Below the pieces are notes generated by a model that saw only the letters and a list, made by a program, of their open reading frames with translations, was not told the origin of the DNA and searched no databases. Shown one piece after another: positions 51,089-62,553 of a DNA stretch of 64,000 nucleotides (its first letter is position 1; the number at the start of each line of letters is the position of its first letter). A program made the translations under genes and the position numbers. The stretch comes from Pelagerythrobacter marensis (GTDB lineage: Bacteria; Pseudomonadota; Alphaproteobacteria; Sphingomonadales; Sphingomonadaceae). The DNA is taken from assembly GCF_036700095.1 (NCBI RefSeq), contig NZ_CP144918.1:2791001-2855000 (forward strand), read 5' to 3'.

Positions 51089-53428
51089 TTAACCAAACCT
51101 GTCGCGTATCATCGGGCTATCCCTTTGTAATGTCAGTATCTCTTGCAAATGGCTCAGCGTTACCGGGCGCGAGATGTAATACCCCTGCCCGATGTCGCAG
51201 CCCATTTCCCGCAGGAACATGTAAGTCTCGCGATCCTCGATCCCTTCCGCCACAGATGTCAGCCCGGCATCGCGGGCAAGCCGGATGACGTTTGCGACAA
51301 TGGCATGCGCGGTATCCGAACGGTGCGCATCGCGAACGAAAATCTGGTCGATCTTGATCTCGTCGAACGGCAATTCGAACATCGCTTCGAGATTGGCGCT
51401 CGCCACGCCGAAATCGTCCATCGACAGGCTTACGCCGAGCCGCCTGATCTGCTCGAAGACCTCGCGCGCCGCCGAAAAGTCCTCGATCCGCGCGGTTTCG
51501 GTCACCTCTATCGTCAGCTTCGCGGGATCGACCGAATGCATTGCCAGGCTCTTCTCGATCAGTTCGGCGATCCGGCTATCGACGAACTGGATGGCCGACA
51601 CGTTCACCGACATGCGCGGATAGTGGTCGCTTCTGCCGAGCGTCTCGGCCGCGTCGAGGCTCTTGGCCAGGATGCGTTTGGTCAGTTCGTCGAGCCGGCC
51701 GACGCGTTCGCACTGGAGGATGAAGCGCGAGGGCGCAACTTCGCCGTGCTCCTCGTCGACCCACCGGGCCAGCGCCTCGACCCCGACGAACTGCCCGCTG
51801 CGCAAGTCCACCTGGGGCTGCAGCTTGATCGAGATGCGGTCGTCCGACAGCGCGCTTTCGAGCCGTGCCTGCAACGAATAGTCCCATTCCTCGCTGTCGG
51901 CGGCGAAATCGGAGATGATGAACACCGGGCGATAGGCCTCGCGCGCCTGGTCGGCCGCAGAGATCGCCGCGCTCAGGCGGGTCGAGACGGACCGTTCCTG
52001 CGATTCGTCGACCCCGATGGTCATCGACACGTCGAGCACGCGCTGCGAAACGGTGATCGATTGCGATGCGACGGCCCGCAGACCTTCGAGGTGTTCCTGA
52101 AGATCGTTGTATTCGTCGCTTTTGACGAGGAACGCGAAATACTTGCCGCCATCGTAATAGATCGTCGTGCGGGTATCGCCGAGTGCCAGCCGCGATGCCA
52201 GTTGGCGGAGGTAGCGCGCCTGGTCGGATGGCCCGAGAGTCGCGAAGACGGCGTCGAGGCGCGCGATCTTGGCGACGACGATCGACGTCCTGTCACCCGG
52301 ATATTCGGCGAAGTCCCGCTGCAGCGCCACGAAGTTCGGCAGCCCGCTTCGCGATTCGACGAACAAGTGCCGCCGCTTGAAGTTCACCGTCGATCGCTGC
52401 GCTGCATAGACCAGTGCGAGGACCAGCGTTTCGCCGAACAGTGCGCGAATCCCGAAATATGCGGTCGCCACGAATGTTCCGGCCAGTGCGGCAATCCAGA
52501 AGAGATAGAATATCCGTCTGGGTGTCGTCCGCCTGAAAACGATCACTCCGATCAGCAGGCTCAACCCGAAAGCGCCGATCATCCAGAACCAGTCCAGATT
52601 CTGGCCGGTGCCGCGCAAGGCCGTTTCGGCCGCAAGAATATGGACGAAGCTCGACGGGCCGAACGCATACCCCGGGATCTTCACGATCCTTGCCTCGGCT
52701 CCCGCCGGTCCCAAAACGACCGTCTTGCCGGCAAGCGCGGCGGCGTCCGCTGCTCCCTGTTCCAGCGCAGCGAGCTTGTATCGCGGGATTTGATCCCGAT
52801 CGATCGAGTAGTCCAGAGATATCGTTTCCTGAGAGTGTGGGCTTGCTGCCAGAGCCTTCCACATCGCCGGTAATGTGACCGTACCGTCGGAATACGATCC
52901 ATCGAGAATCCATACAAATCCGAGAAAATCGGCTCGGTAGTCACTACTGACGACGGAGACGCCTCGTTCGAAAAACGGGTCCCCGTTCTGTGGTAGCGGC
53001 CCCGCTGAAAAGCCGGGCTGAAAGACTCTCGTCAGCACGATCCTGTCCGCCGCGCGAACCAGTTGTTCGTGCAGTTGCCTATCGAGCTCGGGGGAGTTGC
53101 TGCGCTGGATGGGCATGTCGATGAAAATCCGGTCGACCCCAAGATCGAGCAAATGGCGCAGGGATCGAAGAAGATGCTCGTTATCTACGGATTCCCTATC
53201 AAGGTCGGGCGCGGCGCCGACCTCGACGAAGACGATATCGGAACTGGGGGGACGATTGAACAGCTTCGCCTGGAGCGACCAGGCGGTGATGTCGACTGGT
53301 CGGAGTAGCGTTGACACGCCGACCAGCATGGCCAGGCCAATGGCGATGGCCGCATGGCGCACCCGCTCGGATGCAATCAGTTTTCGTGCCAGTGGCAACA
53401 AAGCAGCAATCCTTACTCGTCGCTGCAA
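51089..53428 (-). CDS. CHASE2 sensor with degenerate GGDEF and EAL domain
   Basis: A 779-residue membrane protein. One transmembrane segment (25-43), a periplasmic CHASE2 sensor (45-275), three membrane segments (280-343), then GGDEF (355-505) and EAL (515-765). The GGDEF site reads YYDGGKYF, so it cannot make c-di-GMP. The EAL half keeps E551 (EALARW), N609, E644, D671/D672 (MDDFG), K692, E728 and Q747, so it should be an active phosphodiesterase. Its loop 6 (DDFGVASANL) departs from the usual DDFGTG. The start is a TTG with no clear ribosome site; a downstream GTG is possible. Confidence 0.88.
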   Translation of the reverse strand: MQRRVRIAALLPLARKLIASERVRHAAIAIGLAMLVGVSTLLRPVDITAWSLQAKLFNRPPSSDIVFVEVGAAPDLDRESVDNEHLLRSLRHLLDLGVDRIFIDMPIQRSNSPELDRQLHEQLVRAADRIVLTRVFQPGFSAGPLPQNGDPFFERGVSVVSSDYRADFLGFVWILDGSYSDGTVTLPAMWKALAASPHSQETISLDYSIDRDQIPRYKLAALEQGAADAAALAGKTVVLGPAGAEARIVKIPGYAFGPSSFVHILAAETALRGTGQNLDWFWMIGAFGLSLLIGVIVFRRTTPRRIFYLFWIAALAGTFVATAYFGIRALFGETLVLALVYAAQRSTVNFKRRHLFVESRSGLPNFVALQRDFAEYPGDRTSIVVAKIARLDAVFATLGPSDQARYLRQLASRLALGDTRTTIYYDGGKYFAFLVKSDEYNDLQEHLEGLRAVASQSITVSQRVLDVSMTIGVDESQERSVSTRLSAAISAADQAREAYRPVFIISDFAADSEEWDYSLQARLESALSDDRISIKLQPQVDLRSGQFVGVEALARWVDEEHGEVAPSRFILQCERVGRLDELTKRILAKSLDAAETLGRSDHYPRMSVNVSAIQFVDSRIAELIEKSLAMHSVDPAKLTIEVTETARIEDFSAAREVFEQIRRLGVSLSMDDFGVASANLEAMFELPFDEIKIDQIFVRDAHRSDTAHAIVANVIRLARDAGLTSVAEGIEDRETYMFLREMGCDIGQGYYISRPVTLSHLQEILTLQRDSPMIRDRFG

Positions 53429-55697: not shown

Positions 55698-55826
55698 ATG
55701 ATGAAGAAAGTGATCGCCATCGTGGCCCTGGGCGCCTCGGTCGCGACCCTGGCCGCGTGCAATACGGTGAAGGGCCTCGGCCGCGACATCGAATCGGTCG
55801 GCGAAGCGGGCGACCGCGCGATCTGA
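55698..55826 (+). CDS. Entericidin A/B-like lipoprotein
   Basis: A 42-residue protein: signal sequence KKVIAIVALGASVATLAAC with lipobox LAAC, then CNTVKGLGRDIESVGEAGD, matching the entericidin family of tiny outer-membrane lipoproteins. These are named from an enterobacterial toxin-antitoxin pair, but isolated copies like this one are common and usually of unknown function. No partner gene is seen. Divergent from uvrC. Confidence 0.85.
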   Translation: MMKKVIAIVALGASVATLAACNTVKGLGRDIESVGEAGDRAI

Positions 55827-55867: not shown

Positions 55868-57070
55868 ATGGAGGATTACGACGTCATCGTACTCGGCGGA
55901 GGCGCCGCCGGGCTGATGTGCGCCGCCGTCGCCGGACAGCGGGGACGGCGCGTGCTCGTGCTCGAACGTGCGGCCGAAGTCGGGCGCAAGATCCTGATTT
56001 CCGGCGGCGGACGGTGCAATTTCACCAATATCCATACCGCGCCCGACCGCTACCTTTCCGCCAACCCGCATTTCGCCAAGTCCGCGCTGAGCCGCTACAC
56101 CGCGCAGGATTTCCTGACGCTGGTGGAACGCCACGCGATCGCCTGGCACGAAAAGACGCTGGGCCAGCTGTTCTGCGACGGATCGGCACGGCAGATCGTC
56201 GCCATGCTGCTGGACGAATGCGCCGCGGCGCAGGCGCAGGGCGGCCATGTCGACATCCGCTGCGGAGAGGATATCGCCGAGGTTGCCCATGCCGGCGGCA
56301 GGTTCGACGTCACGACGCCATCCGGCACCCGCTCCGCCCCCGCGCTGGCGATCGCCACCGGTGGGCCCTCCATCCCCAAGATGGGCGCGAGCGATTTCGC
56401 CTATCGCCTCGCCCGCCGGTTCGGCCTGCGGATCGTCGAACCGCGCCCGGCGCTGGTGCCGCTGACGCTGGGCGGGGAGGACGTGCTGTTCCGCGAGCTG
56501 TCGGGCGTCTCCGCCCCGGTCGAGGCGCGCTGCGGCCGCGCCGCGTTCCGCGAAGCGGCGCTGTTCACCCACCGCGGGCTGTCCGGCCCGGCGATCCTGC
56601 AAGTCTCCTCCTACTGGCGGCCCGGCGACGCCGTGGCGATCGATTTCCTGCCCGGCATGGCGCCCGACTGGCTGGTCGAAGCGAAACGCCATGCCCCGCG
56701 CGCGCACTTGCGCACCGTTCTGGCCGAGCGCCTGCCCGACCGGCTGGCGGCGACGCTGGCCGAGCGGATCGGGCTGCCCGGCGATCTCGGCAACCTGCCC
56801 GACAAGGGCCTGCGCGCGGCGGGGCAGAGGCTCGCCGACTGGCGCTTCCACCCCAATGGCAGCGAGGGCTTCGCCAAGGCGGAGGTCACGCTGGGCGGAA
56901 TCGCCACGGCGGAGCTTTCGTCGAAGACGATGGAGGCGAAGCGCGTCCCCGGCCTCTACGCCATCGGGGAAGCGGTCGACGTGACCGGCTGGCTGGGCGG
57001 CTACAACTTCCAGTGGGCCTGGGCGAGCGCGGTCGCGGCCGGCACTGCCCTGGCCGAGCGGGGCGCGTAG
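55868..57070 (+). CDS. HI0933-family FAD-dependent oxidoreductase
   Basis: A 400-residue flavoprotein of the HI0933/BaiN family. The Rossmann motif is VIVLGGGAAGLMCAAVAG, followed by GRKILISGGGRCNFTN, which is diagnostic. The C-terminus has YAIGEAVDVTGWLGGYNFQW and ASAVAAGTALA. The family is annotated as aminoacetone oxidase-like or NAD(P)/FAD-dependent oxidoreductase; the true substrate is unclear. It begins 41 bp after the entericidin stop. Confidence 0.9.
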   Translation: MEDYDVIVLGGGAAGLMCAAVAGQRGRRVLVLERAAEVGRKILISGGGRCNFTNIHTAPDRYLSANPHFAKSALSRYTAQDFLTLVERHAIAWHEKTLGQLFCDGSARQIVAMLLDECAAAQAQGGHVDIRCGEDIAEVAHAGGRFDVTTPSGTRSAPALAIATGGPSIPKMGASDFAYRLARRFGLRIVEPRPALVPLTLGGEDVLFRELSGVSAPVEARCGRAAFREAALFTHRGLSGPAILQVSSYWRPGDAVAIDFLPGMAPDWLVEAKRHAPRAHLRTVLAERLPDRLAATLAERIGLPGDLGNLPDKGLRAAGQRLADWRFHPNGSEGFAKAEVTLGGIATAELSSKTMEAKRVPGLYAIGEAVDVTGWLGGYNFQWAWASAVAAGTALAERGA

Positions 57071-57091: not shown

Positions 57092-60000
57092 TCAGAACAG
57101 CTTGCGGAATTCGATTTCGAACGTGCGGCCCAGCGGGTCGATCAACGCGGGCTGATAGCTGAGCGGCACGGTGCCGCTGGCATCGGTGACCCGCTGGTGC
57201 GCGTCGAACAGGTTGTCCACCCGCAACGACAGGCGCGCGCCCTTCCAGAAGCCGGGCGTGTCGCCGGTCAGCCATTCCTGCTGCTCCAGACTGACGAAGG
57301 CGCGCAAGTCGAACGTCGCGATATCGTCGAAGAACAGGTCCTGCGATCCGGGCAACCCGCTGCCGTCGATCCGGGTGGCGGACTGGTAATTGCCCGAGAG
57401 GCGCAGGCCCACGCCCTTGTGGAACAGCCCGCCTTCCAGCTCGATCTTGTGGCGGGGGATGCCGCTGCCGATCGCCTCGCCGCTCAACTGGTCGAGCACC
57501 GGGCCGCCGGGCGCGACGAGCACTTCGTTCTCGAACTCGATCGAATGATAGAGGCCGAGGTTCCAGCGCCCCTGGCCGCCCGGCCCGCGGCCGAAACCGA
57601 CGCCCCCGCCGCCCCTGCCCCCGCCGCGAGCGCCGCCTCCGCCGCCCGACCGTGCCTCCCCGCCTGCCGGCGGCGAAGTGCCTTCGCCGTCGCGCGTTTC
57701 GGGCAGGGCGCAGATCCGTTCGCGGAACGCGGCGAGCCGGGCGGGATCGATCTCGCCATTCTCGCCGGTCAGCCGCGAGCGAACCTGTTCGGGCAAGGCA
57801 GCGACATCGACTTCGGCCGCCGGATCGGCGCAGAGCGTCTGGCGCAAGGCGGCGAACCGTTCCGGGTCCATCCGGCCGAACTGCCCGCCGGCGGCGGCCC
57901 CTTCCGCGCTGCAGAACCGTTCGCGCAGCGCCGCGACCCGCGCGGGATCGACCTGCCCATCCTCGCCGGTGAGCCGCGCGACAAGGCGTTCGGGCAGGCC
58001 GGAAAGGTCGGGCATCTCGCCTTCGGGCGTGGCGCAGAACCGCTGGCGCATTTCGGCCATGCGCGCCGGATCGAACCGGGCGCTGCCTTCGCCGCCATTG
58101 GCCGGCGCCGGCGGACCTTCGCCGCCGTTGGCCGGCGGCTGCGGAGCGGCACCCGCCACGCGCATCCGCCCGCCCCCGCTCGCACTCATGCCGCCACCGC
58201 TTCCGCTCTCCGCCTCTTCCTTGCCCACCCGGCCGAACAGGTTGACGCCATAGCGCAGCCGGGAGCTTTTCGTGCCCGCGAAGGTCACTGGCCGCCGGTC
58301 GATCGAGACCAGATTGCCCGCCCCGTCGCGCACGACGCGATCGGGGAAAGCCGCCTCGATCGCCGGCGTGAGCAGCGGGAACGACTGCGTGACGTCGTCC
58401 GACCGGTTGCGGAAGTATTCGACCACGATGTTGGCGCGGTCGAACAGATCCAGCTCGTAATTCGCCGCCAGCTTGATGTCGCGCTGCGTTTCCGCGGCGA
58501 GATCGGGATTGCCCCCGGTCACGACGGTCGCCAGCACGCTTTCGCCGCGGCTGAAATCGTAAACCGGCACGTTGAATTCGGTGACCACCGGATCGCCAAG
58601 CTGCGACAGGCTGGGCGCCGCCTCGCGCCAGATATAGCTGGCCTGGAGCGAGAGGCGATCGGTCGGGCGCCAGGCCAGGCCGGCGGTGGCATCGGCCAAG
58701 GTGCCGAAGTCGGACAAGTGGTCGACCCCGGCGGCAAGGTTCAGGGTAAGCTCGCCCAGCGCGCCCAGAACCCCTTCGCGCGCGCTGGCAATGGGCAGGC
58801 CCACATTGACCCCCGCGTTGAGGTTGCCGCGCGTCTGCGCCAGTTCGCCGGCGTCGGAACGGGTATCGGTGCTCTCGATCCGGTTCCACGCATAGCCGGT
58901 GTCGAACGTCACCTGCGCCTCGCCCGCCGGCAAGGCGAAGGGCACGCCGCGCAGCGTGGTCTTGAAATCGGCCGCATATGTCGTGCTGTCGGCGCGGTCC
59001 ACGCCGCCGGGGCCGATCGCGGGCAGCGGACCGTCGATTGCCAGTTCCCCGGCATCGACCAGATCCTGCAACACGCCGGTGTCGCGCCGCGCGTCGATCA
59101 GTGTGGTCTTGTCGGCCCGGCTGGCGTCGAGCGTGGCATCGAGCATCCAGTCGCCCACAGGCTTGTTGAGCGATCCGCCGAACGCATAAGTCGTCGAACG
59201 ATTGCGCCGCTCCAGCGGATCGCCGTCGATCGTGCGCACCGCGCTTTCGCCGCCATCGGTCAGGGTCACGACGTCGAGGCCGGAGAGCGAGCGGCTGAAG
59301 CTGCGTTCCACCCCGAGGTTGAGCGAATACGTCCCCGAACCGGGCGCATCGCCCAGGCTGTCGTTGACCGTCGCGTCCAGTTCCCAGCTTTCCGCATCGG
59401 GGCGCAGGCTGCGGAACGGCGCCGGGTCGGGGTCGCCGGGCACGGTCGGCGTGCTGCCCGGGGTCTGCACGATATCGCGCTCGTCCTCGGTCAGCATGGA
59501 ATTGGTGTTGAACTCGAACCCGATATTGGCCCGGCGCGATCCGTCGATGGTCAGCTGCGACAGCTCGATCTCGCCATTGGCGGTGCCGCCGCGATCCGGC
59601 CCGCCATATTCCAGCTCCACCTCGCGCGAGGTGAAATTGTCCTTGAGGATGAAGTTGATAACACGCTGATCCGCCGGATAGCCGAATTGCAGCGCCACCT
59701 CTTCGGGCAGGACTTCGACTTTTCGGATCGCCTCGGGCGGATAGCGGCGGAATTCGCGGAAGCCGCCGACCCGCTGGCCGTTGATCAGAAACACCGGCCG
59801 GCCCGATCCGCGGCCGCGGCCCGATCCGGTCTGCGGCGCAAGCAGTTCGATCAGTTCCTCGATCGAGCCGGCGCCATAGGCCGCGATCTCTTCCTCATCC
59901 AGCTCCAGCACCGGCGGCACGTTCGTATCGACCTGCCCGCGAATACGCTCGGCAGTGACCACGATATCGGCATCGCTTTCGCCCGCCGGATCGCCGCCTT

Positions 60001-60103
60001 GCGCAAGATCGGGCGCGGCGGACGGATCGCCCTGGGCGAATGCCGGGGCGGCGGTGAAGGCGGCAATGGCAAGGAAGGATGCAGTGGCGGACAGTCTCGG
60101 CAA
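57092..60103 (-). CDS. TonB-dependent receptor with cysteine-repeat insertion (about 1003 aa)
   Basis: Signal peptide (SATASFLAIAAFTAAPAFAQ), TonB-box-like DIVVTAERI, and a short plug with RPVFLINGQRVGGFREFRRYP and a FGYPADQRVINFIL stretch. The barrel ends with TFEIEFRKLF. Residues 676-800 interrupt the barrel with four repeats of DP[AE]R-x5-R-x3-C (cysteines at 690, 731, 758, 798) followed by a glycine-rich stretch to about 835. The start is unclear: a TTG at 60103 has AGAGGA upstream; an ATG at 60181 also lies in frame. Confidence 0.87.
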   Translation of the reverse strand: MPRLSATASFLAIAAFTAAPAFAQGDPSAAPDLAQGGDPAGESDADIVVTAERIRGQVDTNVPPVLELDEEEIAAYGAGSIEELIELLAPQTGSGRGRGSGRPVFLINGQRVGGFREFRRYPPEAIRKVEVLPEEVALQFGYPADQRVINFILKDNFTSREVELEYGGPDRGGTANGEIELSQLTIDGSRRANIGFEFNTNSMLTEDERDIVQTPGSTPTVPGDPDPAPFRSLRPDAESWELDATVNDSLGDAPGSGTYSLNLGVERSFSRSLSGLDVVTLTDGGESAVRTIDGDPLERRNRSTTYAFGGSLNKPVGDWMLDATLDASRADKTTLIDARRDTGVLQDLVDAGELAIDGPLPAIGPGGVDRADSTTYAADFKTTLRGVPFALPAGEAQVTFDTGYAWNRIESTDTRSDAGELAQTRGNLNAGVNVGLPIASAREGVLGALGELTLNLAAGVDHLSDFGTLADATAGLAWRPTDRLSLQASYIWREAAPSLSQLGDPVVTEFNVPVYDFSRGESVLATVVTGGNPDLAAETQRDIKLAANYELDLFDRANIVVEYFRNRSDDVTQSFPLLTPAIEAAFPDRVVRDGAGNLVSIDRRPVTFAGTKSSRLRYGVNLFGRVGKEEAESGSGGGMSASGGGRMRVAGAAPQPPANGGEGPPAPANGGEGSARFDPARMAEMRQRFCATPEGEMPDLSGLPERLVARLTGEDGQVDPARVAALRERFCSAEGAAAGGQFGRMDPERFAALRQTLCADPAAEVDVAALPEQVRSRLTGENGEIDPARLAAFRERICALPETRDGEGTSPPAGGEARSGGGGGARGGGRGGGGVGFGRGPGGQGRWNLGLYHSIEFENEVLVAPGGPVLDQLSGEAIGSGIPRHKIELEGGLFHKGVGLRLSGNYQSATRIDGSGLPGSQDLFFDDIATFDLRAFVSLEQQEWLTGDTPGFWKGARLSLRVDNLFDAHQRVTDASGTVPLSYQPALIDPLGRTFEIEFRKLF

Positions 60104-60321
60104 GGTTTCGTTTCCTCTTGTCGTTACCCTCGCCCCTTGGCCCCGGAACTGCCAAGGCCGGGGCAGGCGCGCAATCCCCATGCGCGTAACGAATTGTCGC
60201 ACAAAGCTTGCTCCACGATTGACGGAGGACGGCACGCGATGGCGGACAAGGCTTCCCTTTTGCTTCGTGCGCCGCTAAAGGGCGCGCCCGATCAAACACA
60301 TTCGCATGGAACGATTACTGG

Positions 60322-60567
60322 ATGGCCAAAGAAGAACTCCTCGAAATGCGCGGCAAGGTGGTGGAACTGCTGCCGAACGCGATGTTCCGGGTCGAGCTCG
60401 AAAACGGTCACGAGGTTCTCGGCCATACCGCGGGCAAGATGCGCAAAAATCGCATCCGCGTGCTCGTGGGGGACGAGGTGCTGTGCGAACTGACGCCTTA
60501 CGATCTGACCAAGGCGCGCATCACCTACCGCTTCATGCCCGGACGCGGCGGCCCGGGGCCGCAATAG
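60322..60567 (+). CDS. infA: Translation initiation factor IF-1
   Basis: An 81-residue OB-fold protein: [19 protein letters not shown], then [20 protein letters not shown] and [22 protein letters not shown], nearly identical to typical IF-1. The alphaproteobacterial form carries a glycine/proline tail. It assists IF-2 and IF-3 at the 30S A site. The 218 bp upstream is the likely promoter region. Confidence 0.95.
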
Positions 60568-62477: not shown

Positions 62478-62553
62478 GCCCAGGTAGCTCAGTTGGTAGA
62501 GCATGCGACTGAAAATCGCAGTGTCGGCGGTTCGATTCCGTCCCTGGGCACCA
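62478..62553 (+). tRNA. tRNA-Phe (GAA)
   Basis: 76 nt including an encoded CCA. The acceptor stem GCCCAGG pairs with CCTGGGC, the D-loop has AGCTCAGTTGGTAGAGC, the anticodon GAA is at 62511-62513 within ACTGAAAAT, and the T-loop is GGTTCGATTCC. Confidence 0.97.

Follow-up and report, generated by a model that had tools for sequence, protein, structure and literature searches.

The periplasmic turns of TonB-dependent receptors usually consist of only a few residues, and the C-terminus of their barrels is periplasmic. An added periplasmic part is known from receptors of the FoxA type, which have an N-terminal extension for regulation. FoxA is treated in the review PMC11658791, where the turns T8 and T9 of FhuA are labelled in a figure of the TonB-box/TonB sheet. 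We take these labels to mean that T8 would lie near TonB. Here we describe a receptor of the BtuB and FepA type from Pelagerythrobacter marensis, whose plug and barrel align with BtuB through to the C-terminal Phe of the latter. In BtuB the chain passes from strand to strand within few residues, whereas this receptor has 218 residues between two modelled strands. This stretch contains a real, conserved and unnamed two-cysteine module, and the turn of the receptor in which it sits is most likely periplasmic.

The window, i.e. the whole stretch of 64,000 nucleotides that was analysed, carries the TonB-dependent receptor gene at 57092..60235 on the minus strand, with an open reading frame of 1047 amino acids from the listed GTG. 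The true start is probably the GTG at 60127 (residue 37), and a putative signal peptide following it would end near residue 67. The barrel profile PF00593 matched the receptor above its Pfam cut-off (37.8 bits, cut-off 27) and the Pfam Plug profile matched below (18.7 bits, cut-off 23.9); the plug was recognised by a profile alignment of the receptors that extends through the plug of BtuB. Close relatives were found in named records, among them Pelagerythrobacter marinus with 82% in the best segment. P. aerophilus and P. rhizovicinus had 74%, and two Altererythrobacter records 78% and 75%. The full-length model of the receptor was weak (mean pLDDT 60.1, pTM 0.43). Its best Foldseek matches were TonB-dependent receptors, e.g. 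PirA with an E-value of 3.9e-11 and BtuB with 1.4e-10. Since the query-normalised TM-scores of these matches were low (0.18-0.28) and the rmsd was about 19-27, the match is local and the superposition poor. The neighbouring genes at the receptor locus gave no substrate prediction.

The insert and its surroundings, all on the minus strand, were divided as follows. The last modelled strand before the insert covers the residues 650-670 (58226..58288; DSSP on the model) and has the number 16 when six strands are counted back from strand 22. It is followed by a first tether of the residues 672-719 (58079..58222) that consists to 71% of Gly, Pro, Ala and Ser and showed low model confidence and poor conservation. 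Module 1 (residues 720-779; 57899..58078) contains the cysteines 734 and 775 and is connected by a short Gly/Ala linker (780-787; 57875..57898) to module 2 (788-846; 57698..57874), which contains the cysteines 802 and 842 and is 53% identical to module 1. A glycine-rich second tether (847-888; 57572..57697) then leads to the six C-terminal barrel strands 17-22 (889-1047; 57095..57571), which were placed with the model and the BtuB alignment and have Phe as the last residue.

In the preliminary description of this DNA, four DP[AE]RxAxxRxxxC motifs with cysteine spacings of 41, 27 and 40 residues had been reported. All four are present, DPARMAEMRQRFC at the residues 722-734, DPARVAALRERFC at 763-775, DPERFAALRQTLC at 790-802 and DPARLAAFRERIC at 830-842, and their cysteines are the only ones of the 1047-residue protein. 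The glycine-rich tail that was said to follow them corresponds to the second tether with 69% Gly, Pro, Ala and Ser. The bases given for the block, 57565-58080, hold approximately the residues 719-891, whereas the residue numbers given with them (676-835) were mismatched, probably because of a later start codon. The LPE...RLTG linkers described between the motifs were found within the cysteine pairs 1/2 and 3/4, but are absent from the gap between Cys 2 and 3. Since the linkers occur only inside these two intervals, the natural unit is Cys-LPE-RLTG-Cys, present twice. As the comparison with relatives shows, the real unit is a two-cysteine module of about 60 residues in two copies rather than the motif of 13 residues. 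When copy 1 (720-779) was compared with copy 2 (788-846), the local BLOSUM62 score was 166, whereas the best of 2000 shuffles reached 48, which excludes a chance repeat. The view that the block is not a standard plug or barrel element was borne out; it is a repeated block in the turn between two barrel strands.

The module alone was confidently predicted from 12 alignment rows, with a mean pLDDT of 83.7 and a pTM of 0.60. The three helices of this small model span the module positions 4-16, 30-36 and 45-57, and helices 2 and 3 are joined by a tight turn, TGEDGQV. Cys 15 is close to the C-terminal end of helix 1 and Cys 56 close to that of helix 3, and from this model we infer a disulfide between them within the module. 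The pairing was followed in an alignment of 73 receptors, which contained five duplicates and hence 68 distinct receptors. The module was borne by 58 of these, 31 with four and 27 with two cysteines, all located in the turn, and none of the 58 has a further cysteine from residue 92 on. The ten receptors without module have no cysteine in the turn; one of them has two cysteines elsewhere. The distance between paired cysteines ranges from 37 to 64 residues and the pairing is nonetheless kept. Since these 58 receptors always have two or four cysteines there, and no others from residue 92 onwards, the pattern fits one disulfide per module, and the disulfides considered in the preliminary description are likely. 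Left out of the count were the window itself (L001), two distant receptors (L029, L030), four incomplete ORFs (L015, L020, L022, L025) and the short stretches L040-L070, only some of which showed the pattern at first inspection. A further 40 loci, L071-L110, were hand-picked from the module matches listed for the family sample.

Across 82 modules, Gly 41 was present in all 82, Arg 11 in 76, Pro 29 in 78 and Arg 35 in 75. Both cysteines were invariant in these modules, partly by construction, as the modules were cut around cysteine pairs; the even cysteine count and the absence of other cysteines are independent of the cutting. For the predicted proteins, the aligned sequences demonstrate a modular unit that occurs in 0, 1 or 2 copies at a fixed place with an even number of cysteines.

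Pfam gave no match to module 1 of the window. When all 82 modules were searched, the Pfam matches listed belonged to at least 25 families, and none of the 48 modules for which the cut-offs were compared reached one. The most frequent weak match was PF11333 (DUF3135), which was found with 9 of the 82 modules at E ≤1 (best 8.6e-5). The four DUF3135 matches analysed in detail were partial, covering about half of the profile or less, and with 17.8, 14.7, 20.5 and 17.4 bits they were all below the cut-off of 22.7. WH_MCM3_C matched two modules (best E 3e-4). The NCBIfam search with the 82 modules listed 12 families with a best E-value of 0.0044. Sequence searches of the PDB gave best E-values of 0.13 and 0.014, the latter to a designed protein, and Foldseek of the module model against the PDB found no match at E ≤0.001. 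VIA-align of the module model had a best Z of 2.8 with an rmsd of 3.5 over 49 aligned residues, which does not by itself show a novel fold. Among the titles and abstract openings of the open-licence papers listed in literature searches, none described such a domain. On this point the preliminary description, which knew of no named domain that fits, is supported within the Pfam, NCBIfam, PDB and literature searches.

The distribution of the module was analysed in genome samples of increasing breadth. With a 12-row profile, 116 of the 397 genomes sampled from the Sphingomonadaceae were positive, which belong to 31 of 96 genera. In the order-level sample, searched with an 82-row profile, 120 of 396 genomes were positive and all matches listed were in the same family; since the genomes listed include no other family, this says little about the other families of the order. 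The class sample had 4 positives among 289 genomes and the phylum sample 7 among 299, and the only matches outside the family were one in G686 and one in G941. The match in G686 (E 2.1e-4) is in a reading frame that we take to encode a glnE-like protein and was regarded as chance, and the match in G941 was weak (E 7.7e-4, 29 residues). No module outside the Sphingomonadaceae was confirmed in the class and phylum samples. Among the matches listed for family and order, the modules were in open frames of about 800-1270 amino acids, except for one of 392 amino acids at a contig end, and all module-bearing frames read among them were this receptor. In its own genome the module is confined to the receptor at 57092-60235; a paralogue (G000:C1:1282501-1285044) has a short corresponding turn without cysteines.

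The relatives have two, one or zero modules, always between the same two barrel strands. In all 9 named loci, the receptor gene has rng and maf to one side and uvrC to the other. Two receptors of Novosphingobium at the orthologous locus are without modules, and their turn is still rich in Gly and Pro with 94 and 124 residues, including about 28 strand residues. Since the same locus between rng/maf and uvrC exists with and without modules, modules were acquired or lost in situ, and the Gly/Pro-rich turns of module-less relatives suggest that a long flexible periplasmic turn may predate the modules. A phylogenetic tree of the modules was calculated on about 60 columns, and its support values were given no weight. 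Of 29 two-module receptors, 5 had their own two modules as mutual nearest neighbours; in the remaining 24, one or both modules were nearer to the module at the same position of another receptor. These groupings indicate that the module pair is old in the group of the window and that duplication probably recurred. Expansions of the turn 16/17 rich in Gly and Pro, with 111-145 residues including about 28 strand residues, were also seen in the receptors L021, L023, L027 and L028, which have no modules.

The amino-acid identity of the modules was compared with that of the tethers. To the receptor of L002 the modules were identical at 0.87 and 0.85 and the tethers at 0.63 and 0.62; to L003 the values were 0.83 and 0.76 for the modules and 0.55 and 0.66 for the tethers. 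The dN/dS of the two nearest pairs was 0.21-0.30 for the modules, 0.05-0.20 for plug and barrel and 0.22-0.23 for tether 2. In two distant pairs the modules had a dN/dS of 0.44-0.82 at a dS of 0.75-1.15. By dN/dS, constraint on the modules is weaker than on plug and barrel and similar to that on tether 2.

The side of the membrane on which the insert is exposed was deduced from the strands that follow it. DSSP assigned six modelled strands after the insert, at 889-906, 928-939, 942-956, 967-982, 1000-1011 and 1038-1045. Because the C-terminus is periplasmic, six following strands would place the insert in a turn on the periplasmic side; for a barrel of 22 strands, this is the turn that joins strands 16 and 17. 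For an alignment with hhalign, the insert columns were removed from the profile of 73 receptor rows, of which 61 were kept after the filter of the program. The alignment spanned BtuB of E. coli from its plug through its final residue (probability 96.5, E 1e-9) and the insert point fell between the preprotein residues 491 and 492, ahead of the last six strands, at a middling column confidence near the insert. We take the BtuB residues 491-493 to be the periplasmic turn T8. With FepA (probability 94.9, E 4.4e-8) the insert was found in the matching turn; the profile alignment with FhuA was unusable (probability 2.8, E 0.016). Strand count and the BtuB and FepA alignments together support, but do not prove, a position of the insert on the periplasmic side in turn T8.

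These predictions bear on the proposal of the preliminary description that the block is a large extracellular loop. A periplasmic position, which had been named there as speaking against this proposal, is what the predictions give, and in the predicted topology the insert connects a down-strand to the following up-strand. An extracellular loop domain that binds a metal or a ligand, or forms surface disulfides, is accordingly improbable: with six strands still to come, the insert falls on the same side as the C-terminus, and the BtuB and FepA alignments concur on a periplasmic turn. In general, however, TonB receptors usually lengthen their extracellular loops and not their periplasmic turns. 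Additional strands were also modelled at 322-335 and at 551-574, which we read as extracellular hairpins; they make the count ambiguous from the N-terminus, where the model has low confidence. Likewise unlikely, although somewhat less so, is a periplasmic metal-binding domain in which reduced cysteine thiolates or an EF-hand-like loop would hold an imported or sensed metal. The module resembles an EF-hand in its succession of helix, DGx[IV]D turn and helix, the DGx[IV]D loop is largely conserved across the 82 modules, and profile searches of the PDB gave calmodulin and troponin C over this loop with non-significant E-values of 0.47-2.2. The cysteines are, however, at the helix ends and the partners 37-64 residues apart, EF-hand families were absent from the Pfam matches listed, and the loop lacks its calcium ligands at positions 1 and 12. 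With the invariant Gly numbered as position 6, all 82 modules had a hydrophobic residue and none an acidic one at position 1, and 2 of 82 had Glu at position 12. A canonical EF-hand was therefore rejected, and the metal binding considered in the preliminary description found no positive evidence.

That the modules have no role of their own and are tolerated in a disordered Gly-rich turn growing almost neutrally is as improbable as the extracellular loop. It would account for a turn whose length varies from 39 to 145 residues (including about 28 strand residues) even without modules, for modules that were gained, duplicated and lost, and for their dN/dS close to that of tether 2. Against it, the cysteine count is even in all 58 distinct module-bearing receptors despite the varying spacing, Gly 41, Arg 11, Pro 29 and Arg 35 are kept in nearly all modules, and the modules exceed the tethers in amino-acid identity.

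We consider it likely that the insert is a pair of disulfide-stapled three-helix mini-domains of about 60 residues each, held on Gly/Pro-rich tethers in the turn T8. The modules would then hang beneath the barrel, beside the plug and the TonB box. Helical domains that are stapled and flexibly tethered at this place suggest docking, and we tentatively propose a putative docking role of the modules. They may catch a periplasmic partner, which could be the C-terminal domain of TonB, the peptidoglycan or a substrate carrier, all three being equal candidates, and the docking would aid energised uptake or the hand-off of the substrate. The conserved arginines could contact an anionic partner or form internal salt bridges. 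More doubtful still is the wider possibility of a novel family of disulfide-stapled periplasmic accessory domains in T8 that are copied and lost as whole units, dock to TonB or the cell wall and tune energised transport.

If true, a TonB receptor would be regulated from within the barrel sequence instead of from the N-terminus. With the FoxA type the receptor would share an added part on the periplasmic side; the FoxA-type extension is N-terminal, whereas the insert described here interrupts the barrel. A folded and stapled domain in a periplasmic turn would adjoin the plug and the TonB box, and the occurrence of 0, 1 or 2 modules at one locus offers a handle on the role of the periplasmic face of the receptor. 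The periplasmic assignment also revises the reading of the repeat block as a surface loop, which was probably mistaken.

The surroundings of the receptor gene were also inspected. The gene at 55868-57070 on the plus strand, presumably encoding an FAD-dependent oxidoreductase, converges on the receptor gene and adjoins it at 5 of the 9 named loci. Between it and uvrC, a small ORF of 42 amino acids at 55698-55826 (plus strand) has a lipobox-like LAAC and is presumably an entericidin-like lipoprotein. On the other side, a gene at 60322-60567 (plus strand), which we take to be infA-like (translation initiation factor IF-1), diverges from the receptor and is followed by maf, rng and the tRNA-Phe at 62478-62553. 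A large ORF at 51089-53428 on the minus strand reads as a membrane-bound signalling protein with domains that we take to be GGDEF/EAL.
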